Positions 5,301-8,656 of a stretch of 8,656 nucleotides of DNA are shown here, piece by piece. The DNA lies in assembly GCA_005223085.1 (NCBI GenBank), contig NJBP01000072.1, forward strand, positions 1 to 8,656, written 5' to 3'. Both the position numbers and the translations under genes were made by a program. The notes beneath the pieces are model-generated. The model ran no database searches, had not been told where the DNA came from, and saw only the letters and a list, made by a program, of their open reading frames with translations. The stretch is from Candidatus Aerophobetes bacterium Ae_b3b (GTDB taxonomy: Bacteria > Aerophobota > Aerophobia > Aerophobales > AE-B3A). How positions within the stretch are numbered: the first letter of the stretch is position 1; every line of letters starts with the position of its first letter.

Positions 5301-5330
5301 GTTTAAAAAACTGGTAAATACTCAGTAAAC

Positions 5331-5358
5331 CCCGTCATTGTGAAGCGAAGCAATCTCG
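5331..5358. repeat. Dispersed-repeat-like segment (CCCGTCATTGTGAAGCGAAG type)
   Basis: The core CGTCATTGTGAAGCGAAGC followed by AATCTCGG strongly resembles the CGTCATTGCGAGCGAAGC...AATCTC interspersed repeats found in intergenic regions of many environmental bacterial genomes. Only one copy lies in this window, so repeat status rests on recalled resemblance, not on a second copy seen here. Confidence 0.5.
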
Positions 5359-5373
5359 GTAGTCGCCGGTAGC

Positions 5374-5391
5374 CGCAGGCTTCAGCCTGCG
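5374..5391. repeat. Compact palindrome CGCAGGCT-TC-AGCCTGCG
   Basis: A perfect 8-base inverted repeat around 2 bases, able to form a GC-rich hairpin, 16 bases after the dispersed-repeat segment. It has no T tract on either side, so it is not a standard terminator, but it lies between two converging transcription units and may slow transcription or protect 3' ends. It may also be part of the same repeat element. Confidence 0.5.
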
Positions 5392-5457
5392 CAAAATCTT
5401 AGCCTTTGCTCCCCCCGATGTTTCTTTCAAAAACTATCTGACGGCAGCCTTCTCAAG

Positions 5458-5814
5458 CTACTTTTCAGATCTCACCGCGCAGAGGATATTCTCAATTTCT
5501 AGTCTTTCTTTGGGGTCCGTGGCCTTTTTTATTCCCTGGTGTATATTTTTCGCTAATTTCTCGCTTGCCCGGTTCCACAATGTGTCCCTTTCCTGTGTGT
5601 TCTTAAAGTGCATTTGGATATGCAGGATATTTTCATGCAATTTATCTTCACTTTTTCGTACGTAAGCAAATAGGGTATAGTTCCTTTTTGTTCTCTCAAG
5701 AAGCTCGTAGGTGGCTGTTAATGATTTGTAGATAACTTCTCCGAATATCGGATATCGGGCCATTTTGGACCTCATTTCTCTCCCCATGAATCTTTCTAAA
5801 TATTTTTTCTCCAT
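5458..5814 (-). CDS. Unrecognised 118-residue basic helical protein, paralog A
   Basis: I do not recognise the family. The product is short, rich in charged residues (25 K/R against 17 D/E) and looks largely alpha-helical, with no signal peptide, membrane segment or cysteine-cluster zinc motif. By hand alignment it is identical at 98 of 118 positions, without gaps, to the product at 6784-7140, and the DNA differs at about 46 of 357 bases. Conserved blocks include ARYP-FGEVIYKSL, TYELLERTKRNY, LHENILHIQM and the C-terminus LEIENILCAVRSEK. Conservation of reading frame and length shows it is a real gene. No good ribosome binding site precedes the first ATG; GGGGAGAGAA precedes the internal ATG at codon 14, a possible alternative start, although similarity between the paralogs begins at codon 1. 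It lies 102 bases downstream of the MBL gene and on the same strand. Confidence 0.75.
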   Translation of the reverse strand: MEKKYLERFMGREMRSKMARYPIFGEVIYKSLTATYELLERTKRNYTLFAYVRKSEDKLHENILHIQMHFKNTQERDTLWNRASEKLAKNIHQGIKKATDPKERLEIENILCAVRSEK

Positions 5815-5916
5815 GGTGTACTTGTGGTAATCTCCACAAAGCAGAGTTTATTAATGATGGAGCTTTTCACCACCCATTCCAATATGCTAAAGGGAATTAA
5901 ACACCTTGTTTGAATT

Positions 5917-6657
5917 TCATATTTCTACTTGCATTAAATCTTCTGCTACTATGATCTCACCATAGAAGTCTCTCGAGCATTGCTCCTTAACCTTTTCTAA
6001 ATCCAAATCTAAATGTGTTAAAACCAATTTCTTGACCCCGGCTTTCTTAGCGATTCCAGCGCACTCTTTAGGGATCAGATGACCTTTTACTTGTTGCTCA
6101 TTTAATGTCGTACACTCCAAAACCAGGACATCCACACCTTTAAAAAACTCTATTAATTTTTCCGAGTAACCTGTGTCTCCAGAATACCCAAATATTTTTT
6201 TCTCGGCCTTTACTTTGTAACAGATCGAGACCAGCTCATCCACATGTTCTGTCCTCATCACCTCTATCTTGAAAAAAGGTAAGAAAATAGCATCGCCTTC
6301 ATCCACTTCCTTTACCTTCACTTCAAAAGGCATGCGTGAAAACTGAGAAGCTAATTTAGTCAGATGCTCATAAAATTTTTTAAGTCCACGTGGACCAAAT
6401 AAATGCAGGTCCTTCTTCCTATCGAGATGATAGGCCCACAAATACTGCAATAAGTCTGAAACATGGTCTATATGCAGGTGAGTAACAAATATATAATCTA
6501 TTTGTTCATAATCTATGCCTGCCTCTATCAAACGCATAAAAGTCCCACTGCCGGCATCAAAAATAATTGTTTTATCGCCTATGGTTAAAGCCAGTCCACT
6601 GGGATATCTAGCTGTCTTGGGTTTAAAAACCCCGGATCCCAATACGGTTAGCTTCAT
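5917..6657 (-). CDS. Metallo-beta-lactamase-fold hydrolase, RNase Z-like
   Basis: A 246-residue hydrolase with the full two-metal site. THLHIDH at 59-65 supplies H60, H62, D64 and H65. Further ligands are probably H138 (RTEHVDE), D161 (YSGDTGY) and H215 (LTHLDLD); H193 in KGHL sits where RNase Z-type enzymes have a catalytic histidine. The N-terminus MKLTVLGSG and FDAGSGT (34-40) are typical of the RNase Z/ElaC-like and arylsulfatase-like MBL branch. I see no flexible exosite arm of the kind true tRNase Z enzymes use to grip tRNA, so tRNA 3' processing is possible but not shown; a phosphodiesterase or other hydrolase is equally likely. The protein is expected to be cytoplasmic. It is flanked on the same strand by two near-identical small genes, 126 and 102 bases away, suggesting one transcription unit. 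Confidence 0.88.
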   Translation of the reverse strand: MKLTVLGSGVFKPKTARYPSGLALTIGDKTIIFDAGSGTFMRLIEAGIDYEQIDYIFVTHLHIDHVSDLLQYLWAYHLDRKKDLHLFGPRGLKKFYEHLTKLASQFSRMPFEVKVKEVDEGDAIFLPFFKIEVMRTEHVDELVSICYKVKAEKKIFGYSGDTGYSEKLIEFFKGVDVLVLECTTLNEQQVKGHLIPKECAGIAKKAGVKKLVLTHLDLDLEKVKEQCSRDFYGEIIVAEDLMQVEI

Positions 6658-6675
6658 ATCCTATTTTACCTTAGG

Positions 6676-6704
6676 TTCTGGAATTCTGGAAGAAACTGAT
6701 CAGT
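6676..6704. repeat. Tandem TTCTGGAA pair and adjacent 10-base palindrome
   Basis: TTCTGGAA occurs twice head to tail at 6676-6691, and the perfect palindrome ACTGATCAGT lies at 6695-6704. Both fall in the 126-base gap upstream of the MBL gene. They could be protein-binding sites or chance; nothing else in the gap, including a promoter, is convincing. Confidence 0.25.
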
Positions 6705-6783
6705 CAGATATACCAACTCTCCCCGTAGAAACTACGTCAAATTTCTCTCGTCCGCCCTCCTCAATCCAAAGGTGATTACTCTG

Positions 6784-7140
6784 CTACTTTTCAGATCTCA
6801 CCGCGCAAAGAATATTCTCAATTTCTAGTTTTTCTTCTGGGTCAGTCGCCTTTTTTATTCCACTTTTTATATTTTCCGCCAACTTTTCGCCTGCCCGGTC
6901 CCACAATGTATCCCTTTCGTGCACGCTTTTGAAGCGCATTTGGATATGCAGGATATTTTCATGCAATCTATCTTCACCTTTTCTTACGTAAGCAAATAGT
7001 TTGTAGTTCCTTTTTGTTCTCTCAAGGAGCTCATAGGTGGCTGCTAATGATTTATAGATAACCTCTCCGAATGTCGGATATCGGGCAATTTTAGACCTCA
7101 TTTCTTTTCCAATGAATGTTTCTAGATATTTTTTCTCCAT
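6784..7140 (-). CDS. Unrecognised 118-residue basic helical protein, paralog B
   Basis: This is the second copy of the unrecognised family, same length as the product at 5458-5814 with 20 substitutions, many conservative (K/R, I/M, K/E). No domain can be named. It is the first full-length gene of the minus-strand cluster, followed by the MBL hydrolase and paralog A. No Shine-Dalgarno sequence precedes its ATG, but a 15-codon ORF with a good site ends 8 bases upstream, so translation may be coupled. The internal ATG at codon 14 has a GGAAAAGAA before it. A near-consensus promoter at 7249-7277 reads toward it. Homology with paralog A stops at the start and stop codons; flanking bases are unrelated. 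It could act in a complex with its paralog, but no function is assigned. Confidence 0.78.
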   Translation of the reverse strand: MEKKYLETFIGKEMRSKIARYPTFGEVIYKSLAATYELLERTKRNYKLFAYVRKGEDRLHENILHIQMRFKSVHERDTLWDRAGEKLAENIKSGIKKATDPEEKLEIENILCAVRSEK

Positions 7141-7148
7141 AATGAGAA

Positions 7149-7196
7149 TTATCTTTTAGTGGCTTCGGCTATTTCATCACTATATATTGTTTTCAT
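7149..7196 (-). CDS. Possible 15-codon leader peptide upstream of paralog B
   Basis: On the minus strand, GAAAGGATCAAA precedes an ATG that opens the short frame MKTIYSDEIAEATKR and ends in TAA 8 bases before the start of paralog B. Its ribosome binding site is better than that of paralog B itself, and it lies about 45 bases downstream of the predicted promoter start. It could be a coupling or leader peptide, or the surviving start of a decayed gene. It is too short to test by composition. Confidence 0.35.
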   Translation of the reverse strand: MKTIYSDEIAEATKR

Positions 7197-7248
7197 TTTG
7201 ATCCTTTCATATCTTAACTGTATTGCTTCAAGACAATTTTATACCTGG

Positions 7249-7277
7249 AATATAGAGCAAATGAGGCTTTTTGTCAA
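7249..7277 (-). promoter_or_regulatory. Near-consensus sigma-70-type promoter for the minus-strand cluster
   Basis: On the minus strand TTGACA (7277-7272) is separated by exactly 17 bases from TATATT (7254-7249): a consensus -35 box, ideal spacing and a good -10 box. Transcription would start near 7242 and run into the 15-codon ORF, paralog B, the MBL gene and paralog A. Confidence 0.7.
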
Positions 7278-7307
7278 ATTGGAACTTCTTTTGACTAAAG
7301 GCTCATT
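7260..7307. promoter_or_regulatory. Large imperfect inverted repeat in the divergent promoter region
   Basis: AATGAGGCTTTTTGTCAAA (7260-7278) matches the reverse complement of TTTGACTAAAGGCTCATT (7290-7307), apart from two substitutions and one extra base, around an 11-base centre. Each arm carries a TTGAC -35 element, one for each direction, so a dimeric regulator bound here could control both transcription units. The symmetry is seen; the operator role is inferred. Confidence 0.5.
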
Positions 7308-7319
7308 ATAGCGCATAAT
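7291..7319 (+). promoter_or_regulatory. Candidate upstream promoter for the release-factor-like gene
   Basis: TTGACT (7291-7296), 17 bases, then CATAAT (7314-7319). The -35 box lies in the right arm of the inverted repeat. It reads toward the gene at 7388. Confidence 0.45.
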
Positions 7320-7327
7320 TTTTTTTC

Positions 7328-7357
7328 TTGACCTTGTGCAGGAGATGATGCTATTAT
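7328..7357 (+). promoter_or_regulatory. Candidate main promoter for the release-factor-like gene
   Basis: TTGACC (7328-7333), 18 bases, then TATTAT (7352-7357), giving a predicted start near 7364 and a short leader of about 24 bases before the ATG at 7388. Confidence 0.55.
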
Positions 7358-7387
7358 ATGTGAAAAACTATTTTATAGAGATAACAA

Positions 7388-7807
7388 ATGCTTAAGTTTG
7401 GAGTTCGTGAGGGAAAAGAAAAAGCTTTAAAAGAGGAAATGCGAAAGTTTAATGTGCGCGAAGAAGATTTGATTGAGAAATTTATTCGCGCAGGGGGTCC
7501 GGGAGGACAAAATGTTAATAAGGTAGCTACTTGTGTTTATCTAAAGCACGTGCCCACCGGTTTTGAGGTCAAAATGCAAAAGGCTCGATCTCAAGGTCTC
7601 AATCGTTTTCTCGCCAGGCGAGTGCTGGTGCGTAAGATCAAAAATCAGATACTGGGCAGGGAAAGCGAAGAGGAGAAGCGCCGCGAGAAAATCCGGAGGG
7701 CAAAACGCAGGCGATCAAGACGAGCTAAGAAGAAAATGCTTGAGCAAAAGAAGCTACAAGCTTACAAAAAGGAACTTCGAGCAAAACCTAACCTGGACGA
7801 AGAGTAG
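7388..7807 (+). CDS. Stand-alone GGQ release-factor-like protein (possible ribosome rescue)
   Basis: A 139-residue protein with only the peptidyl-tRNA hydrolysing domain of class I release factors. The catalytic loop GGPGGQNVNK is at 36-45 with the GGQ at 39-41, followed by VATCVYLKHVPTGFEV and SQGLNRFLARR, as in bacterial RF2-like domains. The codon-recognition domains of RF1/RF2 are absent. The C-terminal 50 or so residues are extremely basic and predicted helical (EKIRRAKRRRSRRAKKK), like the tail that ArfB/ICT1-type rescue factors insert in the empty mRNA channel. It is therefore probably a codon-independent factor that frees stalled ribosomes, but sequence around the GGQ is closer to release factors than to E. 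coli ArfB, so I give no gene symbol. Only a weak AGAGATA lies before the ATG. It is monocistronic and divergent from the paralog-MBL cluster. Confidence 0.88.
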   Translation: MLKFGVREGKEKALKEEMRKFNVREEDLIEKFIRAGGPGGQNVNKVATCVYLKHVPTGFEVKMQKARSQGLNRFLARRVLVRKIKNQILGRESEEEKRREKIRRAKRRRSRRAKKKMLEQKKLQAYKKELRAKPNLDEE

Positions 7808-7817
7808 CACTTAACAC

Positions 7818-7955
7818 TTAGTCTTTGAGCCTTTCTTGAACCGCATCGCTTGTCAACTCTCGAATCGCATCAGAAGCAATCCACCTGTATTTTTCTCTTC
7901 TTATCCAAAGCTTCATTCCCTTTTCTTTCGCCCTCTCCGTAATATTGTCTTCCAT
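7818..7955 (-). CDS. Small 45-codon ORF downstream of the methyltransferase
   Basis: Unrecognised. On the minus strand GGAAGAGAA lies directly before an ATG that opens a 45-codon frame ending in TAA at 7820-7818. The product is charged and tryptophan-containing, with GMKLWIRREKYRWIASDAI in the middle and SDAVQERLKD at the end, unlike random AT-rich translation. The ATG lies 39 bases beyond the TGA of the methyltransferase gene and in the same reading frame, with no other stop between. It could be a small gene co-transcribed with the methyltransferase, or a remnant of something longer. Its end converges on the release-factor-like gene with a 10-base gap. Confidence 0.4.
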   Translation of the reverse strand: MEDNITERAKEKGMKLWIRREKYRWIASDAIRELTSDAVQERLKD

Positions 7956-7994
7956 TTCTCTTCCGGCACTCTCCTTGGAGCTACGAGATAAGTT

Positions 7995-8656
7995 TCATGT
8001 CGCCTCATCGGATTTCACCGCATAAATCTTGATGCTTATAACCGAATTTGCAATCTCTTTTACCTTCTCTGGTGGGATGTTTAAATTTTCCATGATTGCC
8101 TTTGCTGTTGGATCATTAGCCATATACTCAATAGGAAAAGATGTCTCATCAATTATCCTGAGCTCCTGAAATCCTGCCGTTTTTATGGCTCCCAGGTATT
8201 CATCCCTCATCATTGCTCCCGAAAGACAACCAATATATGCCTCAACAGAGTTCTTTATGAAATCGGGAAGTTCCTTCAACAAGACCAGGTCCGAGATCAT
8301 CAACCTGCCACCTGGTTTCAACACCCTGAACGCTTCCCGGAAGACTTTTCTTTTGTCGGGTGAAAGGTTGATAACACAATTTGAGATCACTATATCAACA
8401 GAACTGTCAGCAGCCGGTAGATTTTCAATCTCTCCCAGCCTGAACTCTACATTCTGGTAGCTTCCTTTCTGAGCGTTCTCTCTTGCCTTTTCAATCATCT
8501 CGGCTGTCATATCAACACCGATAACTCTTCCCTTCCTACCAACTTTGTTAGCAGCAAGAAAACAATCGAATCCCGCACCTGAGCCAAGATCAAGCACAAT
8601 CTCACCTTCTTTTAGAGAAGCAAGAGCAACAGGATTCCCACAGCCAAGCCCTAAAT
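7995..8656 (-). CDS. arsM: Arsenite methyltransferase-like SAM-dependent methyltransferase, N-terminus cut by window
   Basis: The frame stays open to the window edge, so the GTG at 8597 is internal and the gene starts outside; 219 residues are visible. Counting from the first visible codon, LGCGNP (3-8) and [16 protein letters not shown] (20-35) are hallmarks of ArsM enzymes, the second being the SAM-binding motif. [13 protein letters not shown], then [10 protein letters not shown] (about 92-101), [14 protein letters not shown] and [17 protein letters not shown] follow in the usual order, and the end [10 protein letters not shown] fits the family C-terminus. Cysteines are visible at 5, 31, 93 and 143; those at 31 and 143 probably bind As(III). 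I see no third cysteine further on, so how many methyl groups it adds is uncertain. The reaction would be SAM-dependent methylation of arsenite to volatile or organic forms in the cytoplasm. No arsenic regulator is in view. Confidence 0.85.

Follow-up and report, generated by a model that had tools for sequence, protein, structure and literature searches.

The window analysed here is the entire 8,656-bp contig NJBP01000072.1 of Candidatus Aerophobetes bacterium Ae_b3b, a metagenome-assembled genome (MAG) of 2.04 Mb, 88.6% complete, whose closest named relative is another Candidatus Aerophobetes MAG (L006). It carries two paralogous genes, termed A and B, on either side of a gene for a metallo-beta-lactamase (MBL)-fold hydrolase. 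As the initial annotation had noticed, the two open reading frames (ORFs) are on the same strand and of identical length, each specifying a protein of 118 amino acids. The features of the locus that matter for the origin of the pair are the following:

5313..5405, plus strand: dispersed repeat with a hairpin, GCCGCAGGCTTCAGCCTGCG, occurring more than 20 times in the genome, in full or in part
5404..5440, plus strand: second short repeat segment, 17 bp from the A stop codon, with 95% identity to a second genomic site (C65)
5458..5814, minus strand: copy A, 118 codons, no family match
5844..5908, plus strand: htpX (M48 peptidase) relic consisting of the final codons, located between A and the MBL gene; 91% DNA identity over 66 bp to L074:645-1619 (PF01435)
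5917..6657, minus strand: MBL-fold hydrolase of the RNase Z/ElaC-like branch, 246 amino acids (PF12706, E 4e-23)
6709..6777, minus strand: methylpurine-DNA glycosylase relic, 23 codons near the C-terminus; tblastn 74% over 23 amino acids, E 2.5e-8, against L075:1175-1756 (PF02245)
6784..7140, minus strand: copy B, 118-amino-acid paralogue, 83% identical to A
7141..7155, minus strand: short upstream block, GATAATTCTCATT, present at B and missing at A
7174..7387, minus strand: ancestral promoter region in common with the divergent release factor (RF)-like gene, together with the initial codons of an acuC-type deacetylase gene that is truncated (alignment to L030; MKTIYSDEI vs. MKTAIIYSDEL; PF00850)
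7388..7807, plus strand: RF-1-domain protein, peptide-release-factor-like (PF00472), a conserved syntenic anchor beside acuC in relatives

The A and B proteins share 98 of 118 residues (83.1%), and their genes differ at 46 of 357 bases (11, 10 and 25 at the first, second and third codon positions), both as counted earlier; the repeat finder picks up the pair independently as D1, at 87%. This similarity is limited to the coding sequence (CDS). In 30-bp bins, base identity is 0.77–0.93 within the CDS versus 0.10–0.43 beyond it, and local alignment of the 100-bp flanks gives best scores of 14 (upstream) and 13 (downstream), where shuffled sequences average 14.6 and 13.8. Simulated neutral flanks at ~0.35 substitutions per site, the synonymous divergence between A and B, scored ~69, with a minimum of 30 in 200 simulations. 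The flanks are thus at shuffle level where neutral divergence should still align, in agreement with the initial view that this is not a simple recent tandem duplication that included its flanks.

Judging from the sequence, the borders of A and B are junctions with the debris of different genes, and it is because each copy abuts such debris that no flank similarity is left between them. The relics were found via targeted searches only. Upstream of B, window positions 7174–7400 align to the intergenic region between the RF-like gene and acuC, including the first acuC codons, of another Aerophobota genome, G003 (score 152; shuffle maximum 43). G002 and G003 both have an intact acuC gene (histone-deacetylase family, PF00850), which is divergent to the RF-like gene; in the window, about nine acuC codons remain before the truncation, and B starts 34 bp further on. 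On the other side of B, the glycosylase relic begins 6 bp past the stop codon, and its intact paralogue (L075:1175-1756) is extant in the same genome. As for A, the htpX relic is on its upstream side, again with an intact paralogue (L074:645-1619) elsewhere in the source genome, and a copy of the dispersed repeat, a unit of ~95 bp, is on its downstream side. The truncated neighbours and dispersed repeats would therefore be an ordinary and largely traceable cause of CDS-limited homology between paralogues in this draft genome, one that accounts for the flank mismatch without the fast divergence of flanks that had been envisaged before.

Some further observations concern the surroundings of these borders. 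The stand-alone RF-1-domain protein (7388–7807, plus strand) is 76–85% conserved in five other Aerophobota genomes, and its gene is divergent to acuC in at least two. Between the RF-like gene and an ArsM-like methyltransferase gene (7995–8654, minus strand) lies an open stretch of 58 codons (7818–7994, minus strand) that has no family match; the matching interval in G002 spans 2.6 kb and includes other genes, so that this may be another deletion scar. The ArsM-like protein has a paralogue at L074:2-598 (85% amino acid identity). The synonymous distance (dS) of that pair, ~0.43, is similar to that of A and B, and the L074 copy adjoins the intact htpX gene whose relic is beside A. Rfam gave no match within the window.

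The statement that similarity begins and ends at the start and stop codons holds for A against B and has to be amended for the family: ~12 bases directly upstream of the start codon (GATAATTCTCAT) are common to B and to two copies outside the window, L006 (12/12) and L005 (10/12), and A lacks them. Since B, and not A, has this block, B may retain the older upstream edge of the gene, A being the putative displaced copy. A −10-like box could be present beside the B start codon, within 7141..7155; a promoter scan near B did not rise above chance (four found vs. 5.6 expected).

Both copies are retained under purifying selection, as follows from a dN/dS (nonsynonymous over synonymous distance) of 0.23 (bootstrap 0.12–0.46) at a dS of 0.3–0.4. 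Changes between A and B are enriched at third codon positions (p = 0.002). The earlier inference that the two genes are kept is thereby upheld.

A and B are the only family copies in the source genome, which does not agree with the dispersed multicopy family that had been suggested. In all, the family is present in three of the 17 Aerophobota genomes searched, which represent three different families of one order, and no convincing further member occurs among the 386 genomes searched; phage, plasmid and viral collections and contig scans yielded no relative either. Weak profile matches in distant genomes (E ~0.001–0.007), partial and mostly within other ORFs, were dismissed as chance. L005, an 18-kb contig that was submitted as part of an archaeal MAG, carries one more copy. 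The contig has a radical-SAM gene with 76% identity to one from Aerophobota, and repeats with matches of up to 91–95% in Aerophobota genomes; for these reasons, we reject an archaeal origin and regard L005 as almost surely a mis-binned Aerophobota contig. The copies on L004, L005 and L006 are each single and in unrelated neighbourhoods: L006 between a major facilitator superfamily (MFS) transporter gene and ilvB, L004 between the archease gene and pdxA, and L005 upstream of a flavodoxin-like gene (neighbour names taken from the translations, without a profile search). The neighbouring genes in L006 and L004 appear intact.

Neither A nor B matches anything, housekeeping or other, in Pfam, NCBIfam, PHROGs, PADLOC or the PDB sequences, so that the family is indeed unrecognised, as initially noted. 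It is best read as an unnamed, conserved and lineage-restricted accessory orphan family of Aerophobota, so far seen only there. Like other taxonomically restricted orphan accessory families, it is small, conserved within one phylum, patchy and devoid of an annotated domain; it differs from them in that two close copies, A and B, are homologous within the CDS only and are bordered by gene relics that can be identified.

On balance, we consider it probable that A and B are functional paralogues of this small family, duplicated or re-acquired in a rearranged locus, and that the MBL gene arrived separately and is not their partner. One copy, most likely A, would have been duplicated into, or re-acquired in, a small region that deletions and dispersed repeats have broken up. 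The neighbours of B would now be what is left of acuC (its 5′ end) and of the glycosylase gene (its 3′ end); those of A would be what is left of htpX (its 3′ end) and the dispersed repeat. The MBL gene would have come to rest between the two copies. Illegitimate or repeat-mediated recombination may have made the junctions. This reading is supported by the patchy distribution of the family, its two copies in the genome, the truncated acuC, the relics with their intact paralogues, the repeat, the absence of the MBL gene from relatives and the dN/dS of 0.23.

Some points weigh against it. The synonymous distance between A and L005 is 0.19 (0.13 by YN00; B–L005: 0.35), lower than those between the window and G003 (0.54) or G002 (1.2) at the RF-like gene. 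By this comparison, horizontal movement of the family gene between lineages is quite possible, although the comparison is only suggestive. The tree of A, B and L005 does not decide the matter, as no topology was rejected (p at least 0.067 in the approximately unbiased (AU) test). Finally, what the A and B proteins might do would be read only from a weak resemblance of the predicted fold.

Movement of the gene by itself, one of the two options of the initial annotation, has to be weighed first among the alternatives. The 118-codon gene could move as a cassette, or be carried by a mobilising system that has escaped notice, and its insertions could have truncated acuC, the glycosylase gene and htpX; the moving unit would consist of the CDS together with ~12 bp on its upstream side and a few bp on its downstream side. 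The five copies are in five different contexts and have only the CDS and ~12 bp or less of flank in common, A and B both abut truncated genes, and the synonymous distance to L005 is low. We nevertheless hold this to be unlikely. At the family copies, there was no sign of a transposase or integrase, nor of a terminal repeat or target-site signature, and no inverted repeats of 10 bp or more occur around A, B or the L006 and L004 copies. The protein has no recognisable recombinase, transposase or nuclease motif and matches no such family in Pfam, NCBIfam, PHROGs or PADLOC. Moreover, there are only two copies in the genome and no relatives in phage, plasmid or viral collections, and the neighbours of the L006 and L004 copies appear intact. 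Rearrangement of decaying genes can account for the broken flanks in the window. As regards empty sites, the B site differs from that of relatives by more than an insertion, acuC being truncated. In a stronger form, a bare coding unit of ~375 bp would spread in Aerophobota without a recombinase, terminal repeats or flanks of its own, disrupting the genes in which it lands and passing from one lineage to another. We give this little credence; a gene that moved alone would be an unusual minimal mobile unit.

The pair might also be a heteromeric partner, a role that the initial annotation proposed, or a regulator of the MBL hydrolase, e.g., in an operon B–MBL–A. The three genes are on the same strand in that order, separated by gaps of 126 and 102 bp, and both paralogues are constrained. 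The gap between the MBL gene and A, however, holds the htpX relic on the opposite strand, and none of the L004, L005 and L006 copies is near any MBL gene; elsewhere, family genes are linked neither to an MBL gene nor to one another. No counterpart of the window MBL was detected at E 1e-20 in 16 other Aerophobota genomes, including those that carry the L004 and L006 copies (G013 and G012, respectively). Because the other copies are not near MBL genes and the MBL gene has no counterpart in those 16 relatives, the linkage is local; a partnership is not supported and stands only a slim chance, and the link of A and B to the MBL gene looks accidental. The hydrolase itself resembles the RNase Z/ElaC-like enzymes in its TIGR02651 and PF12706 profile matches and its PDB matches to RNase Z (1y44, 2cbn). 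It differs from RNase Z in its length (246 amino acids vs. a model length of 302), in its TIGR02651 score of 150 bits, under the curated cut-off of 293 bits, and in having no counterpart in the other Aerophobota genomes searched; relatives at 30–41% identity are common in other phyla.

A simple tandem duplication of a segment that originally included the MBL gene, with later loss of flank similarity, appears very improbable: A and B are on the same strand and 1.3 kb apart, but neutral flanks should align at a dS of 0.3–0.4 and do not, the genome has no second MBL copy at E 1e-20, and the relics contradict it, the flanks of A and B being derived from different genes. That the contig is a chimeric metagenome assembly, juxtaposing two strain variants of a single gene, is barely credible: it is a short MAG contig of 8.7 kb, and L005 begins 12 bp before the same gene, a hint of assembly trouble there, yet both copies are inside the contig with different flanks, the B flank is continuous with the ancestral RF-like/acuC region, and a dS of 0.3–0.4 exceeds strain variation.

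As to the protein, AlphaFold2 models of two family members agree (predicted local distance difference test (pLDDT) values of 81.5 for A and 91.9). The family so defined in Aerophobota is conserved and unnamed, and its fold is predicted with confidence. The best structural matches are the KH-II domain of uS3 (Z 7.2, 3.7 Å over 85 residues) and the RimP-type protein 1ib8 (Z 6.6). The predicted fold is nearest to KH type II, yet the arrangement appears to be a common one, since the PrgH, MamB C-terminal and FliF domains (unrelated alpha-beta-beta-alpha-beta) score within one to two Z units of the KH-II match. The KH signature motif is GXXG, or AXG in RbfA (PMC9917171). Neither is present in the family alignment (A1), in which the region of the helix–helix turn has a single invariant glycine (G94) with no second one three residues on, and no sequence profile of a KH family was matched in Pfam, NCBIfam or the PDB chains. 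Compared with the KH type II group (uS3 N-terminal, Era C-terminal and RbfA, with the similar RimP N-terminal domain), from which its best structural matches come, the family has Z-scores below 8, lacks the motif and the sequence match, and shows a long first and a short second helix after the hairpin as well as extra N-terminal helices. OsmC/Ohr proteins ranked first with Foldseek, but their TM-scores of 0.25–0.41 and root-mean-square deviations of 6–9 Å were unconvincing. RbfA, considered for its size and topology, was not among the structural matches listed, and the family lacks the AXG motif of that protein. No match with E < 0.001 came from a library of viral protein structures.

The basic nature of the protein, remarked upon initially, was confirmed for four family members (isoelectric point (pI) 9.3–9.7); the pI of 5.06 in L004 implies that it is not a family trait. 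With the KH motif absent, the fold a common one and the basic charge not conserved, nucleic-acid binding by the family is a guess.

Outside the subject of this locus, the contig L028 (JAUWZS010000006.1, positions 1–18256), deposited in a Candidatus Aenigmatarchaeota MAG, appears to be Aerophobota DNA. It encodes a DNA cytosine methyltransferase, a phosphoribosyltransferase-like protein and a CARF6-type protein, a set that resembles a defence-associated cluster.
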